Assembly (NCBI GenBank): GCA_029532415.1 | Contig: JAQOTA010000053.1 | Coordinates: 310,001-374,000 of the forward strand | Length of the DNA: 64,000 nucleotides | Reading direction: 5' to 3' | DNA from: Marasmius tenuissimus | Taxonomy: Eukaryota; Basidiomycota; Agaricomycetes; Agaricales; Marasmiaceae | Part shown: positions 39,125 through 60,201 of the stretch, piece after piece | How the letters are laid out: every line of letters begins with the position of its first letter | How positions within the stretch are numbered: position 1 is the first letter of the stretch | Translations under genes and position numbers: made by a program | Notes under the pieces: generated by a model | Seen by the model: the letters and a program-made list of their open reading frames with translations, nothing else | Databases searched by the model: none | What the model was told of the DNA's origin: nothing

Positions 39125-39847
39125 TCAACCAACTACAAGTTCCCAAATATCTCCTCCGACTCGACTCGTTCTCAGCCCCAGGAATACCCTTCGACCTCGC
39201 AGAAAGTCCATCTTGATTCTGCTTCTCTCCTCGCCAACGGGTTGTAACATCTCTCTCGAAATTGCAACAAGCACGTCAACAACCGTGACTCCTCTCGAGT
39301 CCAAACCGGATTCATGAACCGTTATCGGCCATGGTAGCCAATGGTGTACCACTGTCATCGAGGGAATCGCTGGGAACGTAGCCGGGTCCCTTAACGCGCT
39401 CCAGCCACTTTCCATCGCGGCCTCTACGCCCTCGTGCGACCACAGCAGGTCCCAGTGCAGTCCAGCTTTTCTCGGTGCAAGTAGCAGTCGATGTAGCACT
39501 ACCTCGCTACCGCACTGTGTAGGCAGAGGAACACATTGGTGACGGCGTAGAGCAGGAGGGGTTGTTCCCGTCACTCGACTTTCGTGACTTTCCTCAAAAG
39601 GAAATCCTGGTCTAAGGGGGCTTGTCGTTTTCGCGGTCGTTGTGGACGTCGATCGCGATGTCCAGGTGTCCTCTGTCGCGACTGAAAACTCTTCACGATG
39701 CTCTCTGGCCTCATCGAATGACTTTGCCATCGATTGCGGTGTCTTCATCGTGCCGGGGGCGTCTTTGATGGATCGTGTTGCGTCCAGTACTGGCGGTGTG
39801 CAATGTGGTGGGAAGCGGACGAGATATCGAGAAGTTGGGTTGGTCAT
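39125..39847 (-). CDS. DUF6699 domain protein, copy 1
   Basis: Single coding exon of 240 residues. The start chosen (MTNPTSRYLVRFPPHC) aligns with copy 4 (MTNPASRYLVHFPPHC). A Ser/Thr/Pro-rich N-terminal half (to about residue 105) is followed by the conserved domain: PLPTQCGSEVVLHRLLLAP, GLHWDLLWSHEG, a DPATFPAIPSMTVVHHWLPW block, VTVVDVLVAIS and a GGDIWELVVG end. The function of DUF6699 is unknown. No signal peptide or membrane helix. The promoter is the shared TATA/ACGCGT module upstream, and a 5'UTR intron with a GTGAGG donor at about 39952 is likely. Closest relative in the window is copy 4. Confidence 0.85.
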   Translation of the reverse strand: MTNPTSRYLVRFPPHCTPPVLDATRSIKDAPGTMKTPQSMAKSFDEAREHREEFSVATEDTWTSRSTSTTTAKTTSPLRPGFPFEESHESRVTGTTPPALRRHQCVPLPTQCGSEVVLHRLLLAPRKAGLHWDLLWSHEGVEAAMESGWSALRDPATFPAIPSMTVVHHWLPWPITVHESGLDSRGVTVVDVLVAISREMLQPVGEERSRIKMDFLRGRRVFLGLRTSRVGGDIWELVVG

Positions 39848-40101
39848 CGTGTATCGCATGTGGTGATGAGCAGGGATATTCAATTCGACGTTCTCTACGG
39901 CCTGGTCAACCTCACAACATCGACGAGAACCATATCCTCCAGACGCCCTCACCTAGCGGTATAAGCACCGTGGCCACTCTTTGAGCCTTCGTATGAGCTT
40001 TTGGGAGCGGGGGGAAATGGGGGGAATGCAAGGAAACGGTGGGGAGATGGTGGGGGTGTTGGTGAAAGATGGGTTCCAATGGGTGGGACGTTGGGCATAC
40101 T

Positions 40102-40582: not shown

Positions 40583-41296
40583 TCAATCGACCACGAGTTC
40601 CCATACGTCTCCTCCGAGCTGGCTAGTTCTCAGTCCAAGGAATATCCTCCGACCGCGCAGAAAGTCCAACCTGATCCTACTCCTCTGCTCGCCGACTGGC
40701 AGCAGAAGTTCTTTCGATATCGTGACGAGCACATCCGCCACGCTAACTCCTCCCGAGTCCGGATCAGACGCATGTACGGTTATCGGCCACGGTAGCCAAG
40801 GATGCACGATTGACATCGAGGGGAGTCCAGGAAAAGTAGCCGGTTCACTCAGAGCCTTCCGATGGCTCTCTGACACGCTCTCCACGCTCTCGTGTGACCA
40901 TAGTAGGTCCCAATGCAGACCTGCTTGTCTTGGGGACAGAAGCAGCCGATGTGGCACTGCCTCGGAGTCACATTGCGTGGGCAGGGGGATAGGTCGCCGA
41001 CGGGAAAGAGGAGGAGGGTTCATTTCAGTGGCGCTTTCGTAACTTTCCCTAAAAGGAAAGCGTGGTGAAGGCGCGTTCGTTGTAGAGATCGAAGACGTTG
41101 ACCGCGATGACGAGGAGCCCTCCGTTATCACTGGGAACGCCTCGGAATACTCCTTAAAGTTGGTGAGGGCTCTCGCTGTCGTTTGTGACGACCTCGTGTG
41201 GCTGGGAGACTCTTCGATGGAGGGTCTTCTATGGAATACGGGTGGCGAATCGCATGACGGGGAGTAAAGGGAACATCGAGGAGATGGGGTGGGCAT
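40583..41296 (-). CDS. DUF6699 domain protein, copy 2
   Basis: Single coding exon of 237 residues. A Ser/Pro-rich N-terminus is followed by the same domain as copy 1: PLPTQCDSEAVPHRLLLSP, GLHWDLLWSHES, an EPATFPGLPSMSIVHPWLPW block, a VSVADVLVTIS segment and GGDVWELVVD. The GLHWDL, LPWPITVHAS and FLRGRR blocks are the most conserved across all five paralogs. A likely 5'UTR intron has a GTGAGA donor near 41397. A tandem GGTTGGGAGAT repeat (about 41487-41510) lies between it and the TATA box. Function unknown. Confidence 0.85.
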   Translation of the reverse strand: MPTPSPRCSLYSPSCDSPPVFHRRPSIEESPSHTRSSQTTARALTNFKEYSEAFPVITEGSSSSRSTSSISTTNAPSPRFPFRESYESATEMNPPPLSRRRPIPLPTQCDSEAVPHRLLLSPRQAGLHWDLLWSHESVESVSESHRKALSEPATFPGLPSMSIVHPWLPWPITVHASDPDSGGVSVADVLVTISKELLLPVGEQRSRIRLDFLRGRRIFLGLRTSQLGGDVWELVVD

Positions 41297-41559
41297 CGTG
41301 CTCTTTATGATGGAGGGGAGCTTATCCGACGTTCTTTACGCCCTAGTCAGCCCCGACATCGACTGGAGCAATACCTCTCTCTTCGATCTCACCTGACAGT
41401 TCTCAAACTCGGAGGTGCACTCTGATTCTACGTATGACCTCTGGCCTCTGGGTAACGAGGGGAACTGGGGTGGAAGGCAAGGAGATGGTTGGGAGATGGT
41501 TGGGAGATGGCGGTATCAAAGAAAGATGTGCTGACATGGGTCGAACGGTTGGACGGTCT

Positions 41560-41864: not shown

Positions 41865-42584
41865 TCAACCCACGATGAGCTCCCACACATCCCCTCCAAT
41901 TCGACTGGTTATCAATCCAAGGAATGACCTACAACCTCGCAAGAGATCGGCTCTAACCCGACTCTTCTCCTCTCCGACTGGTCGCAGCAGCTCTTTCGAG
42001 ATCGTAACGAGCACATCCATGACAGCCACGCCTCTTGAGTCGAGGCCGGAGGCGTGAACTATGATTGGCCATGGTAGCCAATGGTGCACCACTGTCATCG
42101 AGGGCAGCGCAGGGAACGTAGCTGGGTCTCTCAATGCCTTCCATCGGCCCTCCAGCTCGTTCTCTACGCCCTCATGGGACCACAGGAGTTCCCAATGTAA
42201 CCCCGCTTTTCGAGGAGACAGAAGCAACCGATGTAACGCTACTTCGGTGCCGCATTGTGTGGGGAGAGGGATAGGTCGCCGGCGGCAAAGCGCAGGAGGG
42301 CGTATTTCCGTGCCACTCCCTTCGCGATTTTCCCTAAAAGGAATATGCGGGGAAGGCGCGCTCGTTTTCCCGGATAATTTAGACGTCGACGGCGATGAGC
42401 AGTCATCCTCCGTCGCTGTTGGAGACATCTCACAGTGCTTTCCCACCACGATGAGGACTCTTGATACCGTTCGCGATGATCCCATGACACCGGGAGAGTC
42501 TTCGATGGATCGTCCTCTTAAACATCCATGTGGCGCGTTGTGTGAGGGGAGGCGGCTGGGATATCGAGGAGATCGGCCAGACAT
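41865..42584 (-). CDS. DUF6699 domain protein, copy 3
   Basis: Single coding exon of 239 residues. It starts MSGRSPRYPSRLPSHNAPHG and has the usual low-complexity N-terminal half, then LPTQCGTEVALHRLLLSP, GLHWELLWSHEG (Glu replaces Asp in the WDL motif), a DPATFPALPSMTVVHHWLPW block, VAVMDVLVTIS and GGDVWELIVG. A 5'UTR intron with GTAAAG donor is likely near 42680. It resembles copy 5 in its upstream flank, suggesting block duplication. Function unknown. Confidence 0.85.
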   Translation of the reverse strand: MSGRSPRYPSRLPSHNAPHGCLRGRSIEDSPGVMGSSRTVSRVLIVVGKHCEMSPTATEDDCSSPSTSKLSGKTSAPSPHIPFRENREGSGTEIRPPALCRRRPIPLPTQCGTEVALHRLLLSPRKAGLHWELLWSHEGVENELEGRWKALRDPATFPALPSMTVVHHWLPWPIIVHASGLDSRGVAVMDVLVTISKELLRPVGEEKSRVRADLLRGCRSFLGLITSRIGGDVWELIVG

Positions 42585-43730
42585 TGTGGTCTGTGACGTG
42601 CAGGAGCTTATTTGATATCTTCGACGCCCTGGTCAGCCTCGTAACATCAAGGAGACGATTGTCATCCCCAACAACTTTACCTGATTGGCCTCAGACTCGA
42701 AGACGCTCTTTAATCCTTTCTAAGAGCTTTGGGAATTGGGGGGAATCAAGGGGACACCGGAAAGACGAAGAAGCGGTGGTGGTGGTGGTGTTGGAGAAAG
42801 ATGGTTCGACATGTCTCGATGCATGGGGTGGTCTTATATAGGTGCAAGAGGGACTAGCTCACGCGTCACACCCGACCTGCCTATCTGGTCTGTCACTGTC
42901 ACCTTCCAATTCACTTGTTGATCCCCAATGTAACCCCACACATCTGTACTAAGCCCCAGGGCTTTTCACTGGACCAAGTCACAGCCTCGGGCGCCACTGC
43001 GCAACTTGGTAGACTCAGGCACGCAGTTGATGTTTTTATTCGACGCTCGTTATTTATGAGGCGCAACCTTTCGTTTGATGTTTGTATCATATACTCGCTA
43101 CCCGCAACAGCCTGTTCGGTCCATGTCTGAATCGAGTGTTCATAACCCATCTTTTCCCTGGTATTACCGTCGTCCTTTCATTCATCGCTTATCTTGAGGG
43201 ACAGTAAATACATGACACTTTAGACTTGCAAGGGACCAGTAGTCAAACAACTTGAATCGCCAGCGAAATTCGTCAGTCGAAGTCTACGACTCAGTATACA
43301 AGAAAGGGCCTAACCTTAAAACGACACCACCGAGGGGAAGCACGAACTTAGGGAGGGCAAACGAGTTCGGCGACTTATGAATCATGATGCACGATGTCCG
43401 AATGACCGCGACGCCACATCGAAAAATATCGAACAATCGAACTCTGAGCCTCGTCAGGAGCATCCGACTCGGAAACATAGGCTTGGTGGACTCACCTATG
43501 CTTAGCGACTCAACATCAAGAAACTCAAGAGTCGAGTTGGACTGGAATAGGTCACGCACGACCCGAGTTACATACTAATGCCAACGGTTCATTTCTGTCT
43601 GTCATTTGGCAATACCCTCGAAGTCCCTTTCTAGATTCTCCTCCATTGAATAGCTCTAATACTTCGGCCTGAATCAGCCCAGCTGAAGTGGTCATGCGAT
43701 TCAAAAACGCAGATATTTCTCATAATTTTC
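42585..43730. other. Promoter of DUF6699 copy 3 and unassigned sequence
   Basis: Contains the promoter module at 42835-42866. Beyond about 42950 nothing is recognised. The P-type ATPase phosphorylation motif DKTGT, expected downstream of the truncated ATPase half, is not found here. Confidence 0.5.
42835..42866 (-). promoter_or_regulatory. Shared promoter module of DUF6699 copy 3
   Basis: TATATA at 42835-42840 and CTCACGCGTCAC with ACGCGT at 42861-42866, about 250-280 bp upstream of the ATG. Confidence 0.65.
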
Positions 43731-46700
43731 TCATACATTTACGCGTTTCGAGACCCATATCTTTACGGCAAATACTAGAATGATCGTCACAGCAAGAGTC
43801 AAACCTAGAATGCTCTCGTTTTGAAAATGAGATCGTTATCGTACATGGATGGGGCGTACCTTCCGGCATGGACATAACAATCGAGGCACAGATGACTATG
43901 ATTTTCACGAACGAAAACACCTTCCCTTTCCAAGACCTTTAGAGATTAAGTCCCAACAGTGAAAGAAAGGGAGAAAAGTAAGCATACCGGTCGTCATTTG
44001 GTAGGTGGCTAAAGTTGAATTGACCTATCGCACTAAGCGCCTTGAGAAGGAGGAAACCACCGTAGGAGTACTGCAACGTTGTGGTAAGTTCGGCCCGACT
44101 GTCGAGGCGGCGCAGTGCTGCTGTAGCATTCAACACACCCCGTCGCACAATTGAGAGCTGACGAGTGCCTTACCCATCATAATTCCATTGCAGCTCCTTG
44201 TCCCCAGTACTGTCACTACAACGTATTTACCCAAGCCCTCCCGGACCTTGCTGCCACTCAATACGAAGCAATCAGTGTGCTTTGTACCTGCACCTGATGA
44301 GCCAAAGTGAGTTCGATGCAACGGTCGAATCACGATACGAGAAGTATCTTGCCTCCTTCCTTTTCCTTCTGCCTCAGAGTTGTCCATTCAGCCCAGGTCA
44401 CTTTCTTGATTACATCGCTCTCTCCTGTGACGGCACTTTCGTCACACCTGACGTTGTGGCCTGACAAGAGGATACCGTTGCAGAGAATGTTTTCACCCGG
44501 TCCCAGGAGTGCAATGTCGCCGACAACAACTTCCTGAAAACTATTCAGGTCACGGTGTGTGCGTGAACAACGATGAGAACTCACTCTGAAATCAACGATC
44601 TCTTCAAGCCCATTTCGAACAACCTTCACACTAAGCTTGTCCCTCTTATTTTCCAAAGCTCGAACCTGCCTCTCTTGCTGCCAGGCCTGGATCGGAGATA
44701 CAATGCCAACCTGGGCAGAATGTTCAAATGCGAACAAGAGATGATGGGTCGAGTCCACATACCACAACAATAAAAATAGCCGCCACGGTAGTCACTCCTT
44801 CAAAAAAGACCACAGGAGGGCCTTCTGCGCTATGCGTACCAATGGCATCGGGAAACCCAAAGGCCGGTGAGACAGCCATCCAAGTCTAGAAAGCAATGTT
44901 AGTACCACTCGTAGCTGTATTGCTTGAGAACGAACAAAAGTAGTACATACCAATTTAATGTTGTCCCACATTACTAGCGCCATGTGATCAAATAGTCTCC
45001 TCGCTTTTCGGACTGGCAACGAGTTTTCGCCGTATACGCGTCTTCTGTCAGCGAATGACGCGCTGAGGGCGCCCGAGTTGTCCCATTTGTCGTCGTCACC
45101 TTCTTCCGTACAAGAGACAGTGCCCAAGTCGTCAACAGAAGTGACCTTGCCTTGCCTATCGCCACGTCCTTCGTGACTCTCGTTGGTCCCTGTTCGAGCA
45201 AGATCGTTCCCAGCATCATGGTCTGTCTGCAGACCGCGTGAGGGGTCAGTCCCTAACCCCCGAACTATACCGACCACGCCGCCAAAGCTTTCCAAGGTCT
45301 CATAGCTCTTGGGGTGAAACATAAAAGCGAGCTCGTGAGGTTTAAACCTAAATGGTGTGGGGTCGACCTCCTTAATATCCGAGAGTTCCGCTCCCAACGT
45401 GCTCCGTCCCGCGGTGCGCGAATCCAAACTCGGATCGTCCGGGTTCAAATAACTAATGAAGGAAGGGTCTCCAGGAAAAGGGTTGCCGGCCTCGATCAAC
45501 CTGTGTAGGTAGCGCTGCAACATCGTTGCTGTCGGTCGTCGTAAGGGATCCTCGCCCCAACATAGTTCAACCAAATCCCATATGTGGTCTGGACACCAAC
45601 CTTCTGACGGTCGTTCTGGTCTGATGTGGTGAACGCTGACCTGAAAAATAACCGCAGCATCTATGAGGTGATGAAAAGGCGGCTTCCCAGTCATTATCTG
45701 TGTAAGTTCAAGTCAATAAAGTCGAATTGACGAAATTCTCCCGAGCGCACCTCAAGCACTGTACAGGCGAAAGCGTAGATATCTCGTGGGGTTTTTTTCG
45801 AGTCCTTAGTACTATTTCCCTTTGTATCTCCCTTGACATCCACTCCCGATGCGAATGAGAACATCTCAGGCGCCATCCACCTCGTGGAACCCTTGATACC
45901 CCCGCTACTAGTTGTAGGCATCATAGTTGTGTCAGCCAGGATGTCTGCCAACCCAAAATCCGCCAGAAGGCATTGGTGGTGTCCATCTACAAGAATATTG
46001 GCCTAAAGATGTTTATTGGGTTACATTCTGTGGGAGAGAGCCACGTACCCCTTTGATGTCTCCATGAACCACAGGGGGGGAGAGGGAGTGTAGGTACTGT
46101 AGTCCGGATACAATGTCGTAGAGCTGGTTGAGAATAGGAGTGTATTACGACGGTTATCAACAGACCAATCATACGAGCACCTACTGCCCGGATCCTATCG
46201 TGGCCAGGATTTTCCTTCAGGAACGTGATGATGTCTCCATGCTCCATCCAGGGTGAAACGAGGCAGAACCCTGACGGGAACAGGTTGGTATTCACTCCGA
46301 GTAGAGGAAGAAGGTTGGCGTGTTGGAGTTGCGTCCATAATAGTGCCTCTTGGCAGAAATTCTGGCGTTTCGTGAGCAGATTACCGAAAGTTATAATTCA
46401 GGCGACGCACTGCTATGAGTTGTTCCTTCTTCCGCCCACTCTCAGCTACGTGAACGCGTAAAACCTTCAAGCAAACTGCCTTCCCGCCTGTGGTGCCTTT
46501 GTATATGTCCTGGCAATGACAGAGTCAGTACGGTCATAGGCTTCATCCCATTCAAGAATTGAGCCACCGCAAAACCTCCACCAGTACGTGGATGAGTCCC
46601 ACTCTGTATTATGTCGTGCAAAAACAAAGACGGTGGAAGTGCCCGAAAACTCTTGACAAGACGTTTCAGGCATTCCATGCAACGCCATCTGTAATCATCT

Positions 46701-46939
46701 TTTAGATCGAGTCTTTTTAACTCCTTGATAGCCCAGTGTCAGCGATGTGGCATGGAGGATAGATACAGAGGACCACGAGCCGTGTAAAGAAATTCAATGG
46801 CATACAATCCAAAGGATGGATCGAGTCGAAGCAGGTGATTCGCCGGTTTTGGCAGCGATAGTATTTCTCGAAGGTCCTCTGCGTTCTGGATCGGGCAAGA
46901 TGGAGGAGGATAAGCCGGAGAACCTTCAGAAGAGTTCAT
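43731..46939 (-). CDS. TKL-type protein kinase fused to the N-terminal half of a P2B calcium ATPase
   Basis: Fourteen exons with consistent phases give 825 residues: 46939-46767, 46688-46568, 46509-46411, 46361-46185, 46123-46049, 46002-45751, 45697-44951, 44885-44763, 44710-44585, 44533-44353, 44293-44174, 44120-43988, 43936-43860 and 43804-43731. Kinase, about residues 85-370: GGGFADIYKG loop, Lys113, HGD at 210-212 (HRD is canonical), DFG 230-232, APE to Glu261. A Ca-ATPase start follows from ~411 (DPTPFRFKPHELAFM, GIVRGLGTD), then RRRVYGENSLP, an actuator domain with TGES (667-670), HTDCFVLSGSKV, and a TM4-like PEGL segment (~800) before the stop. The phosphorylation and nucleotide-binding domains are missing. 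The junction lies inside one uninterrupted 747-nt exon. One intron is GC-AG. Extra 5' exons (for example 47122-47043) are possible, so the N-terminus is tentative. Confidence 0.75.
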
Positions 46940-57780: not shown

Positions 57781-58500
57781 TCAACCAACTACAAGTTCCC
57801 AAATATCTCCTCCAACTCGACTCGTTTTCAGCCCCAGGAATACCCTTCGACCTCGCAGAAAGTCCATCCTGATTTTGCTTCTCTCCTCGTTAACGGGAAG
57901 TAACAGCTCTCTCGAAATCGCGACAAGCACGTCAACAACCGTCACACCCCTCGAGTCCAGACCAGAGGCATGAACTGTTATCGGCCATGGCAGCCAACGG
58001 TGTATCACAGTCATCGAGGGAATTGCTGGGAACGTAGCCGGGTCTCTGAACGCGCTCCAGCCACTTTCCATAGCGGCCTCTGCCCCCTCGTGCGACCACA
58101 GCAGGTCCCAGTGTAGTCCAGCCGCTCTTGGAGCCAGCAGCAGTCGATGCAGCACTACTTCGCTGCCGCACTGTGTAGGCAGAGGAATACACTGGTGACG
58201 GCGTAGGGGAGGAGGGCTCTCTGTCACTCGACTTTCGTGACTTTCCTCAAAAGGAAATCGTGGTCTAAGCGGACTCGTCGTTCTCGCAGTCGTCGTAGAC
58301 GTCGACCGCGATGTCCAGGAGCCCTCTGTTGTGCCTGCAAATGCTTCAGCACGTTCTCCGACCTCGTTGATGGACTTTGTCATCGATCGCGGTGTCCTCA
58401 ACGTGCTGGGGGCGTCTTCGATGGATCGCGTTGTGCTCGGTAGTGGTGGTGTGCAGTGTGGTGGGAAGTGGACGAGATATCGGGAAGCTGGGTTGGTCAT
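57781..58500 (-). CDS. DUF6699 domain protein, copy 4
   Basis: Single coding exon of 239 residues, the closest paralog of copy 1 (both start MTNP.SRYLV.FPPHCTPP). The domain shows PLPTQCGSEVVLHRLLLAP, GLHWDLLWSHEG, a DPATFPAIPSMTVIHRWLPW block, VTVVDVLVAIS and GGDIWELVVG. The Ser/Thr/Pro-rich first 100 residues are probably disordered. A 5'UTR intron with a GTGAGG donor near 58602 is likely. It belongs to the duplicated block that also carries the small tail-anchored protein gene. Function unknown. Confidence 0.85.
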   Translation of the reverse strand: MTNPASRYLVHFPPHCTPPLPSTTRSIEDAPSTLRTPRSMTKSINEVGERAEAFAGTTEGSWTSRSTSTTTARTTSPLRPRFPFEESHESRVTESPPPLRRHQCIPLPTQCGSEVVLHRLLLAPRAAGLHWDLLWSHEGAEAAMESGWSAFRDPATFPAIPSMTVIHRWLPWPITVHASGLDSRGVTVVDVLVAISRELLLPVNEERSKIRMDFLRGRRVFLGLKTSRVGGDIWELVVG

Positions 58501-58759
58501 CGTGTGTTGTGATGAGCAAGGGGTTTATTTTGACGTTCTCTGCGACCTGGTCAGCCTCACGGCACCAACGAGCGCAACACCCTTCAGACGGCCTCACCTA
58601 GCGGTACCGGACGGATACTGGCCCTGTTGTTACTCCTCTATCCTTCGTATGGGTTTTGGGGAACGGGGGGAAACGAGGGGAAGACAGAGAAACGTTGGGG
58701 AGATGATGGAGGGTGTTGATGAAAGATGGGTCGCAATGGGTGGGGACGTTGGGCAGTCT

Positions 58760-59224: not shown

Positions 59225-59956
59225 TCAACCAACTACGAACTCCCACACATCTCCCCCGAGCCCACTCATTTTCAACCCAAGGAACATCCTATGACCTCGC
59301 AAAAACTCGAACCTAGTCCTACCCGTCTCTTCTTGAACTGGGAGCAGTAACTCCCTCGAGATCGAAACGAGCACGTCCACAACGGTTACTCCTTTCGAGT
59401 CTAGACCAGAGGCCTGTACTGTTATCGGCCACGGTAGCCAGGGGTGCACGACCGTCATCGATGGAAGTGCAGGAAAAGTAGCTGGGCTCCTCAAAACGTT
59501 CCAACGACCCTCCAATGCATTGTCCACGCCCTCGTATGGCCTCGTCAGGTCCCAGTGGAATCCCGCCTCCTTTGGAGCAAGTAGCAGCAGATGCAACGTT
59601 ACTTCGATGCCGTACTGCGTAGGCAGTGGAACAGGTCGCTGACAACAAAGAGCAGGAGGATCCGTATTCATGGTATTCCCCTCGTGATATGCCCTAAAAG
59701 GAAGTTGCCGTGAAGGCGCGCTCGCCGCAGACGTTGTGGATGTCCACCGCAACGACCAGTAGCTCTCTGTTGCTAATGGAAACGTCTCCGAATGCTCCCC
59801 AACGTTGGTTAGGGCCCTCGATGCCGTTGGAGGCGGCCTCTTGGTGACGGGAGAGTCCTCGACGGGTCGTCCTCTGAAGACTACTGGCCCTCGTAGGTCG
59901 AGTGGTTGGTAGGGGATGGGATACCGAGGAGATGGGGCGAGTATGGTGCTCTGCAT
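59225..59956 (-). CDS. DUF6699 domain protein, copy 5
   Basis: Single coding exon of 243 residues starting MQSTILAPSPRYPIPYQPLD. Conserved blocks: PLPTQYGIEVTLHLLLLAP (the Cys of the other copies is Tyr), GFHWDLTRPYEG (diverged from GLHWDLLWSHEG), a SPATFPALPSMTVVHPWLPW block, VTVVDVLVSIS and GGDVWEFVVG. It is the most diverged of the five. A 5'UTR intron with a GTAAGG donor is likely near 60046. Function unknown. Confidence 0.82.
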   Translation of the reverse strand: MQSTILAPSPRYPIPYQPLDLRGPVVFRGRPVEDSPVTKRPPPTASRALTNVGEHSETFPLATESYWSLRWTSTTSAASAPSRQLPFRAYHEGNTMNTDPPALCCQRPVPLPTQYGIEVTLHLLLLAPKEAGFHWDLTRPYEGVDNALEGRWNVLRSPATFPALPSMTVVHPWLPWPITVQASGLDSKGVTVVDVLVSISRELLLPVQEETGRTRFEFLRGHRMFLGLKMSGLGGDVWEFVVG

Positions 59957-60201
59957 CACGCAAGAGTTCTATTCTATTCGACGTTCTCTACGTCTTGATC
60001 AGCGTCACGACACCAACGAGACGAATGCCTCCTTCGACGACCTTACCTGGCGAACCCCAAATCAGGCTCGAAGGTGCTTCTTGACCCTCCGTATGGGCTT
60101 TGGGCTTCAGGGAATCAAAGGGAAAGCGAGGCAATGGCGGAGAGATGGTAGTGGTGTTGGAGACAGATGGGTTGGCATCGGTCGAATGGTTGGGGTGGCC
60201 T

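Follow-up and report, generated by a model that had tools for sequence, protein, structure and literature searches.

How a complete protein kinase came to share one open frame with the front of a calcium pump, and whether the result is a gene with a product of its own, is the question raised by a locus of the basidiomycete Marasmius tenuissimus, a fungus that PMC8581569 names as causing cacao thread blight. At this locus, a TKL-type kinase is followed in the same frame by the leading portion of a calcium ATPase of the P2B type. The window analyzed was a stretch of 64,000 nucleotides on contig C10 (6,714,940 bases), and genome searches covered 71.06 Mb in 70 contigs. Features of the window are collected in Table 1.

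Table 1. Positions within the window of the kinase-ATPase gene, its parts, and the neighboring DUF6699 frames.
Feature	Position	Strand	Remarks
Whole chimeric gene	46939-43731	minus	14 exons, 832 aa, hand-built model
Exons 1-5	46939-46767, 46712-46568, 46509-46411, 46361-46185, 46123-46049	minus	hand-built model
Exons 6-10	46002-45751, 45697-44951, 44885-44763, 44710-44585, 44533-44353	minus	hand-built model
Exons 11-14	44293-44174, 44117-43988, 43936-43860, 43804-43731	minus	hand-built model
TKL-type kinase domain, complete	46712-45509	minus	residues ~103-370, PF07714 3.1e-34
Junction exon	45697-44951	minus	kinase C-lobe end, post-kinase stretch, ATPase-derived N-terminal region
ATPase stub	45397-43755	minus	partial P2B duplicate, introns retained
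TGES, actuator domain	44428-44417	minus	PF00122 1.1e-22
GC-donor intron	44352-44294	minus	GT at same site in parent pump gene
TM4-like segment	43936-43731	minus	PEGLTLAV, ~20 residues more, then stop; no DKTGT
DUF6699 frames	39125-39952, 40583-41335, 41865-42632	minus	array downstream of chimera
DUF6699 frames	57781-58524, 59225-59968	minus	second small array, other side of chimera

The gene was modeled by hand, with splice sites set by homology to the parent pump gene while the frame was kept in view; sibling kinases were also used. The product has 832 residues or near, the exon 1/2 boundary being uncertain, rather than the 825 of the original prediction. The chimera has GC where the sibling kinases carry the GT donor of intron 1, and the intron was modeled with a GT further down and a matching acceptor (46766-46713); residues ~58-60 are uncertain because of this substitution. 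An in-frame alternative acceptor lies 3 bases from the exon start at 44117, which may instead be at 44120. The junction exon is followed by seven introns and not six as first counted, one of them with a GC donor. Were this GC-donor intron left unspliced, the protein would end in KILLVS and would still include the kinase, TM2, and the actuator core. GC-AG introns are described in PMC7072748 as one of two major noncanonical splice classes, accounting for less than 1% in model organisms. Pfam profiles run against the 832-residue model found the kinase (PF07714), then Cation_ATPase_N (PF00690 at residues 446-484, 8.4e-06), and then E1-E2_ATPase (PF00122 at residues 624-823), in keeping with the proposed order.

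The kinase had been described as complete-looking, with Lys, HGD, DFG, and APE motifs, and it proved so both in the motifs read directly and in the PF07714 match. These comprise a GGGFADIYKG loop, HGD (Asp220), DFG at 238-240, APE at 267-269, and CW(X)6RP; the motif lysine, given as Lys113 in the original prediction, is Lys121 in the 832-residue model. The best solved relatives were TNNI3K (1.2e-25) and CTR1 (1.2e-23), both TKL kinases, with tyrosine kinases such as EphA2 (5.4e-22) next. By its whole catalytic domain, its motifs, and its closest solved relatives, the chimera kinase is of the TKL type. Compared with six sibling kinases, the kinase half gave w values of 0.145-0.254, inside the range of the siblings among themselves (0.125-0.283; exon 1 left out in both cases). 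Judged by these ratios, purifying selection acts on the kinase half.

The fusion itself lies where it was predicted to lie, in a single frame through an uninterrupted exon of 747 nt with 0 stops that contains the Cation_ATPase_N region as well as the last part of the kinase C-lobe. Within this exon the C-lobe is followed by a stretch, GNPFPGDPSFISY, that is common to the sibling kinases. Compared as DNA, the six sibling kinases of C10 follow the chimera as far as 45431-45543 and diverge beyond; for the three closest, homology stops at 45431-45433. The ATPase homology is firm from 45367 and probably begins at ~45397 (LGAELS), and the junction lies at ~45432-45397.

The genome search found ATPase DNA of the stub type at two loci only, the chimera and a P2B pump gene on the minus strand of contig C27 (1807148 to ~1802300), in which DKTGT and the later domains are open. 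Stub and parent align as DNA in two pieces, identical at 69% (E 1.8e-165) and 85% (E 5.6e-58) of positions, and the DNA homology ends at ~43785, with protein likeness a few codons further. The copied segment begins within parent exon 1, at about residue 147 of the parent protein (firmly by residue 208), spans seven introns, and ends within exon 8.

Other origins were considered and rejected. A multi-copy element carrying the fusion does not fit ATPase DNA found at the chimera and the parent only, and a processed retrocopy does not fit the retention of 7/7 parent introns in the copied segment. A full pump with its remainder hidden downstream was likewise dismissed, as no parent DNA was found past ~43785 at E<=10 except short chance-like pieces.

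In a tree of seven rows, the stub sits on a long branch and joins P0011, the pump of M. tenuissimus, with 95/95 support, while the other pumps, from M. crinis-equi, M. fiardii, M. oreades, Moniliophthora roreri, and Armillaria, fall outside the pair. By this grouping, the stub is a P2B calcium ATPase by descent. At sites differing between the M. tenuissimus and M. crinis-equi pumps, the stub sided with the former at 24, with the latter at 7, and with neither at 16. The copy therefore seems, with the caution that a long branch demands, to be younger than the split of M. tenuissimus from M. crinis-equi.

As had been proposed, the spliced 832-residue model contains TGES and PEGL and lacks both the phosphorylated Asp (DKTGT), which is present in the parent pump, and the remainder of the pump. 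The nucleotide-binding domain and TM5-TM10 are absent from it, with no match to PF13246, PF00702, or PF00689 at E<=0.1. The predicted end of the frame at PEGL was right as to the motif, whereas the stop falls ~23 residues beyond it, at 43731. A P-type ATPase cannot cycle without its phosphorylated Asp and nucleotide domain. The chimera product, which has neither and of the membrane helices retains just the TM1-TM4 region, cannot pump.

A second M. tenuissimus assembly carries the same junction. Its protein P0001 (513 aa), encoded on another contig of 186,486 bases, contains kinase and E1-E2_ATPase domains and matches our model in identical blocks of 271 and 236 residues (507/507 aligned); a 16-residue gap and the last residues reflect differences between the gene models. 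The P0001 annotation starts inside the kinase, ends earlier, and reads through the GC-donor intron to the KILLVS stop. The pump of that assembly, P0011, differs from the pump of this genome at 4 of 525 residues (1/333 and 3/192, in two tblastn pieces crossing no intron, with pieces running into introns uncounted), and the two assemblies are therefore not one sequence deposited twice. Because both carry the junction, the fusion is not an assembly error, and an artificial joining of the two halves, one of the outcomes that would have overturned the original prediction, is not borne out. Beyond the odd architecture, nothing was found to suggest an assembly or annotation artefact; against one stand the same junction on a different contig and a 15-31% DNA difference between stub and parent, which argues against a recent misjoin, making such an artefact extremely improbable. 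AlphaFold was run on P0001 with kinases and pumps aligned together (run 1) and with pumps only (run 2), and the mean pLDDT values of the two runs, 47.9 and 54.8, represent low mean confidence in both.

The disagreement of the two gene models at both ends shows that the annotation is unstable, as would be expected if the locus made two separate products, namely an early-ending kinase transcript and a second transcript that starts internally and carries the ATPase stub. However, one open exon holds both parts with no stop between them, and the model of the other assembly also joins them in one protein. The copied segment begins inside parent exon 1, so the parent start codon and promoter were left behind; expression of the stub would therefore depend on the kinase gene. 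We consider two separate products improbable.

The ATPase-derived part has changed rapidly. Stub and parent differ with dS 0.72, dN 0.25, and w 0.35 overall, and the stub's own w must exceed 0.35 because most of the amino-acid change sits on its branch; in the seven-row tree its end branch is 0.8, ~60x that of the parent pump (~0.013). At the protein level, 156/425 residues differ, a count close to what simulated neutral drift of the parent sequence gave at 0.2 and 0.25 changes per site (means of 145 and 171 differences). The best 19-residue hydropathies of TM2 and TM4 are kept (2.37 and 2.14, versus 2.68 and 2.51 in the parent), while those of TM1 and TM3 have fallen to 0.85 and 0.88 from 2.48 and 2.13. 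Such helix damage misfits a working pump, and much of the change in the stub was therefore probably made after the pump function was lost, with the frame still kept.

The long stub branch, the near-neutral amount of amino-acid change, and the eroded TM1 and TM3, together with GC at two splice donors where relatives carry GT, would suit a chimera in decay, in which the kinase works while the ATPase-derived tail drifts, is translated without a role, and is heading for loss. This is the chief rival to a membrane-tethered kinase, and we regard it as possible though not probable. The identical tail in the second assembly says little against it because the strains are close. What does speak against decay is the state of the frame and of the actuator core. 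The 425 aligned codons contain 0 stops, an outcome to which neutral simulation assigned P 0.056 at 0.1 changes per site and P 0.001 at both 0.2 and 0.25, and which arose in 0/1000 runs at 0.3, 0.36, and 0.5. The six whole exons compared differ in length between stub and parent by -15, +3, 0, 0, -18, and -3, and the seven introns by +13, 0, 0, 0, -1, -4, and +2, so that the changed lengths are divisible by three in 4/4 exons and 0/4 introns; this count is not fully independent of the gene model because the frame was taken into account when the splice sites were chosen. An in-frame join alone would have a chance of ~1/3, whereas a frame kept afterwards is something that chance would rarely give. 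Across seven 60-codon windows (a final 5-codon piece gave no value), w ranged from 0.135 to 0.57, and the lowest value belonged to the window of the actuator core, which starts just before TGES.

The share of changed sites also differs by compartment, strongly on one set of invariant sites and weakly on the other. Among sites invariant in five Marasmiaceae pumps, the stub has changed 38/147 cytosolic and 58/113 membrane positions (P 3e-5), and among those invariant in all 14 pumps 24/81 and 31/68 (P 0.06), with segment limits set by the analyst and the N-terminal linker (16/45 changed) placed in neither class. By these measures, evolution of the stub is relaxed and fast, yet the stub is open and in frame.

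The stop-free 425 codons, the frame-keeping length changes, and the constrained actuator window lead us to favor over decay a young, species-restricted chimeric gene encoding a membrane-tethered kinase and not a pump, a reading that we consider slightly better than an even bet (a probability of about 0.52). It agrees with one of the two possibilities given in the original prediction. Also in its favor are the single frame through the junction exon, the fusion in the second assembly, the parent start codon and promoter left behind, the intact and constrained kinase, the kept hydropathy of TM2 and TM4, and the other tails of sibling kinases; against it count the GC donors, the eroded TM1 and TM3, the large amount of amino-acid change, the weak compartment contrast on the 14-pump sites, the shorter P0001 gene model, and the low AlphaFold confidence. 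The sequence shows that a TKL-type kinase paralogue from a cluster of kinase and DUF6699 genes has been fused in frame, downstream of its kinase domain, to a DNA copy of an inner P2B gene segment. One protein would be made from the gene, with an active kinase. The TM2- and TM4-like helices would insert in the membrane, leaving the kinase and the actuator remnant facing the cytosol. There, the actuator-derived domain would offer a docking surface that might touch the parent pump or its partners, and the tail may affect the parent pump through docking or competition.

The kinase belongs to a large group. When used as a genome query, it gave at least 150 exon-level matches (253 candidates), two of which were the chimera locus and one the pump. 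The best were mostly on C10, at 570-573, 589-591, 438-445, and 499-501 kb, with C27:1088482 also ranking among them. The siblings at C10 501 and 589 kb continue into DUF6699 (P0047 and P0027 of the other assembly), and those at 439 and 444 kb have two hydrophobic stretches, as judged by eye. The sibling pair at C10 570-573 kb may be one tandem-kinase gene; its second kinase has a tail without a named domain and, in the alignment, an intron 2 donor that is not GT.

A quick tree of 62 kinase rows placed the chimera and P0001 in a clade of 15 (SH-aLRT 99), with three rows under half filled. The other tails in this clade were DUF6699 in seven cases, a dsRBD in one, a caspase in one (P0013 of Marasmius fiardii; PF00656, 1e-19), and four without a named domain. 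Elsewhere in the tree, P0023, P0026, P0028, and P0044 of Marasmius oreades and M. fiardii have a G-alpha tail (PF00503) in common; since it is common to two species, one such kinase fusion seems to have been kept across species. From this distribution, the chimera looks like one tail swap among several in related kinases.

Among the related kinases, the named tail seen most often is DUF6699, a domain of unknown function. Of its 45 matches in the genome, 19 are on C10, 17 of these between 349 and 590 kb, where kinase and DUF6699 genes are interspersed over ~240 kb. Five DUF6699 frames lie in the window, the nearest ~1.1 kb downstream of the chimera. The domain was not named in the open-licence PMC papers searched, and a search with the middle of a long DUF6699 tail returned no known signaling domain, its 6 matches (query included) being kinases of the same kind or pieces of them. 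A stretch of 1.1-1.3 kb upstream of the chimera kinase is 77-78% identical to the DNA before the 438-kb kinase, and kinase and upstream DNA were therefore probably duplicated together, with the pump piece added on the 3' side. The window block appears to have an inverted paralogue on C10 at ~436-457 kb. Within the upstream stretch (window 48493-47388, minus strand), some parts have two matches in the C10:436-kb block, which suggests internal repeats.

The presence of several alternative tails within one kinase clade, and of a tail that changes fast yet stays in frame, invites an analogy with integrated decoys, for which a plant precedent and model are described in PMC10260397. The copied pump fragment, a piece of a likely target, would then be bait, and the kinase would signal when it is touched. 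Relaxed constraint accounts equally well for a fast tail, and we hold such a receptor to be quite improbable here. A broader conjecture, speculative and in our judgment unlikely, is that the Marasmiaceae have a tail-swapping system in which a TKL module in a fast-turning cluster repeatedly gains pieces as baits or address tags. The pieces would be DUF6699, caspase, dsRBD, G-alpha, and calcium pump, with the pump stub a fresh capture. The whole might then be the fungal equivalent of kinase fusion proteins in plants.

Two protein searches, each capped at ~8,000 scored candidates, found kinase and ATPase domains together in one protein only, P0001, among the best 120 of 131 matches in the first and the best 120 of 176 in the second; matches beyond the best 120 were weaker. 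No kinase/P-type ATPase fusion in fungi was found in the open-licence PMC papers searched. The original statement that no standard family has this architecture thus holds for the kinase/ATPase pair among those matches, and it misses the other tails. As far as searched, the chimera has a new architecture and belongs to a kind already known, the kinases expanded in Agaricomycetes.

Among the 120 matches listed, eight other front-half pump proteins were examined. DKTGT is still present in P0155 and P0216; P0222 continues past PEGL with DKTGT changed; P0171, P0205, and P0207 end ahead of PEGL; and P0140, on a 9.2-kb contig, stops after TM4 and shares 99.5% identity with a full pump across 657 residues. 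The eighth, P0203 of Stygiomarasmius scandens (1102 aa), aligns at residues 197-580 with P0011 residues 202-607 (54% identity), with nearly the same start, and its pump part stands behind a zinc finger-like stretch (by eye) and is without TGES or DKTGT. P0203 may represent a separate capture of this part of the pump, or its gene model may be wrong.

With the parent pump and close kinase siblings preserved in the same genome, the locus offers a clear case of gene birth from a kinase and a copied pump piece. Were it expressed, the product would be a membrane kinase anchored by a dead pump and could show the effect of a pump fragment on calcium handling. The clade of kinases differing mainly in their tails provides a setting for following the birth of signaling proteins.

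Comparison with known systems places the chimera between several of them. Like the FslK kinases, as described in PMC3937382, it has complete catalytic motifs, CW(X)6RP, and HGD instead of the tyrosine-kinase subdomain VI pattern, and it belongs to a lineage-specific expansion in Agaricomycetes. Additional domains were reported there in 16 of 241 members in a 2014 survey of that lineage, and the chimera differs in its ATPase-derived tail, the likeness being one of features (PMC3937382). With P2B pumps of the PMC1/PMCA type, represented by the C27 parent and P0011, it has in common the N-terminal region, TM2, the TGES actuator core, TM4 with PEGL, and, in comparison with the parent gene, seven intron positions. 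Unlike these pumps, the stub has no DKTGT, N and P domains, or TM5-TM10; its TM1 and TM3 are eroded, and PEGLP has become PEGLT.

SERCA pumps belong to the P2A group. S1T, a truncated SERCA1 without ATP-binding and phosphorylation domains, disturbs calcium regulation when expressed, according to PMC6418371, and resembles the tail of the chimera in being the front of a calcium pump without catalytic domains; in contrast to the chimera, it is made by exon skipping and carries no kinase (PMC6418371). Triticeae kinase fusion proteins such as Sr43, Lr9, and Pm4 likewise join a kinase to varied other domains and, as set out in PMC10260397, arose in many independent events within one organism group. 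They differ from the chimera in being plant resistance genes with tested effect (PMC10260397).
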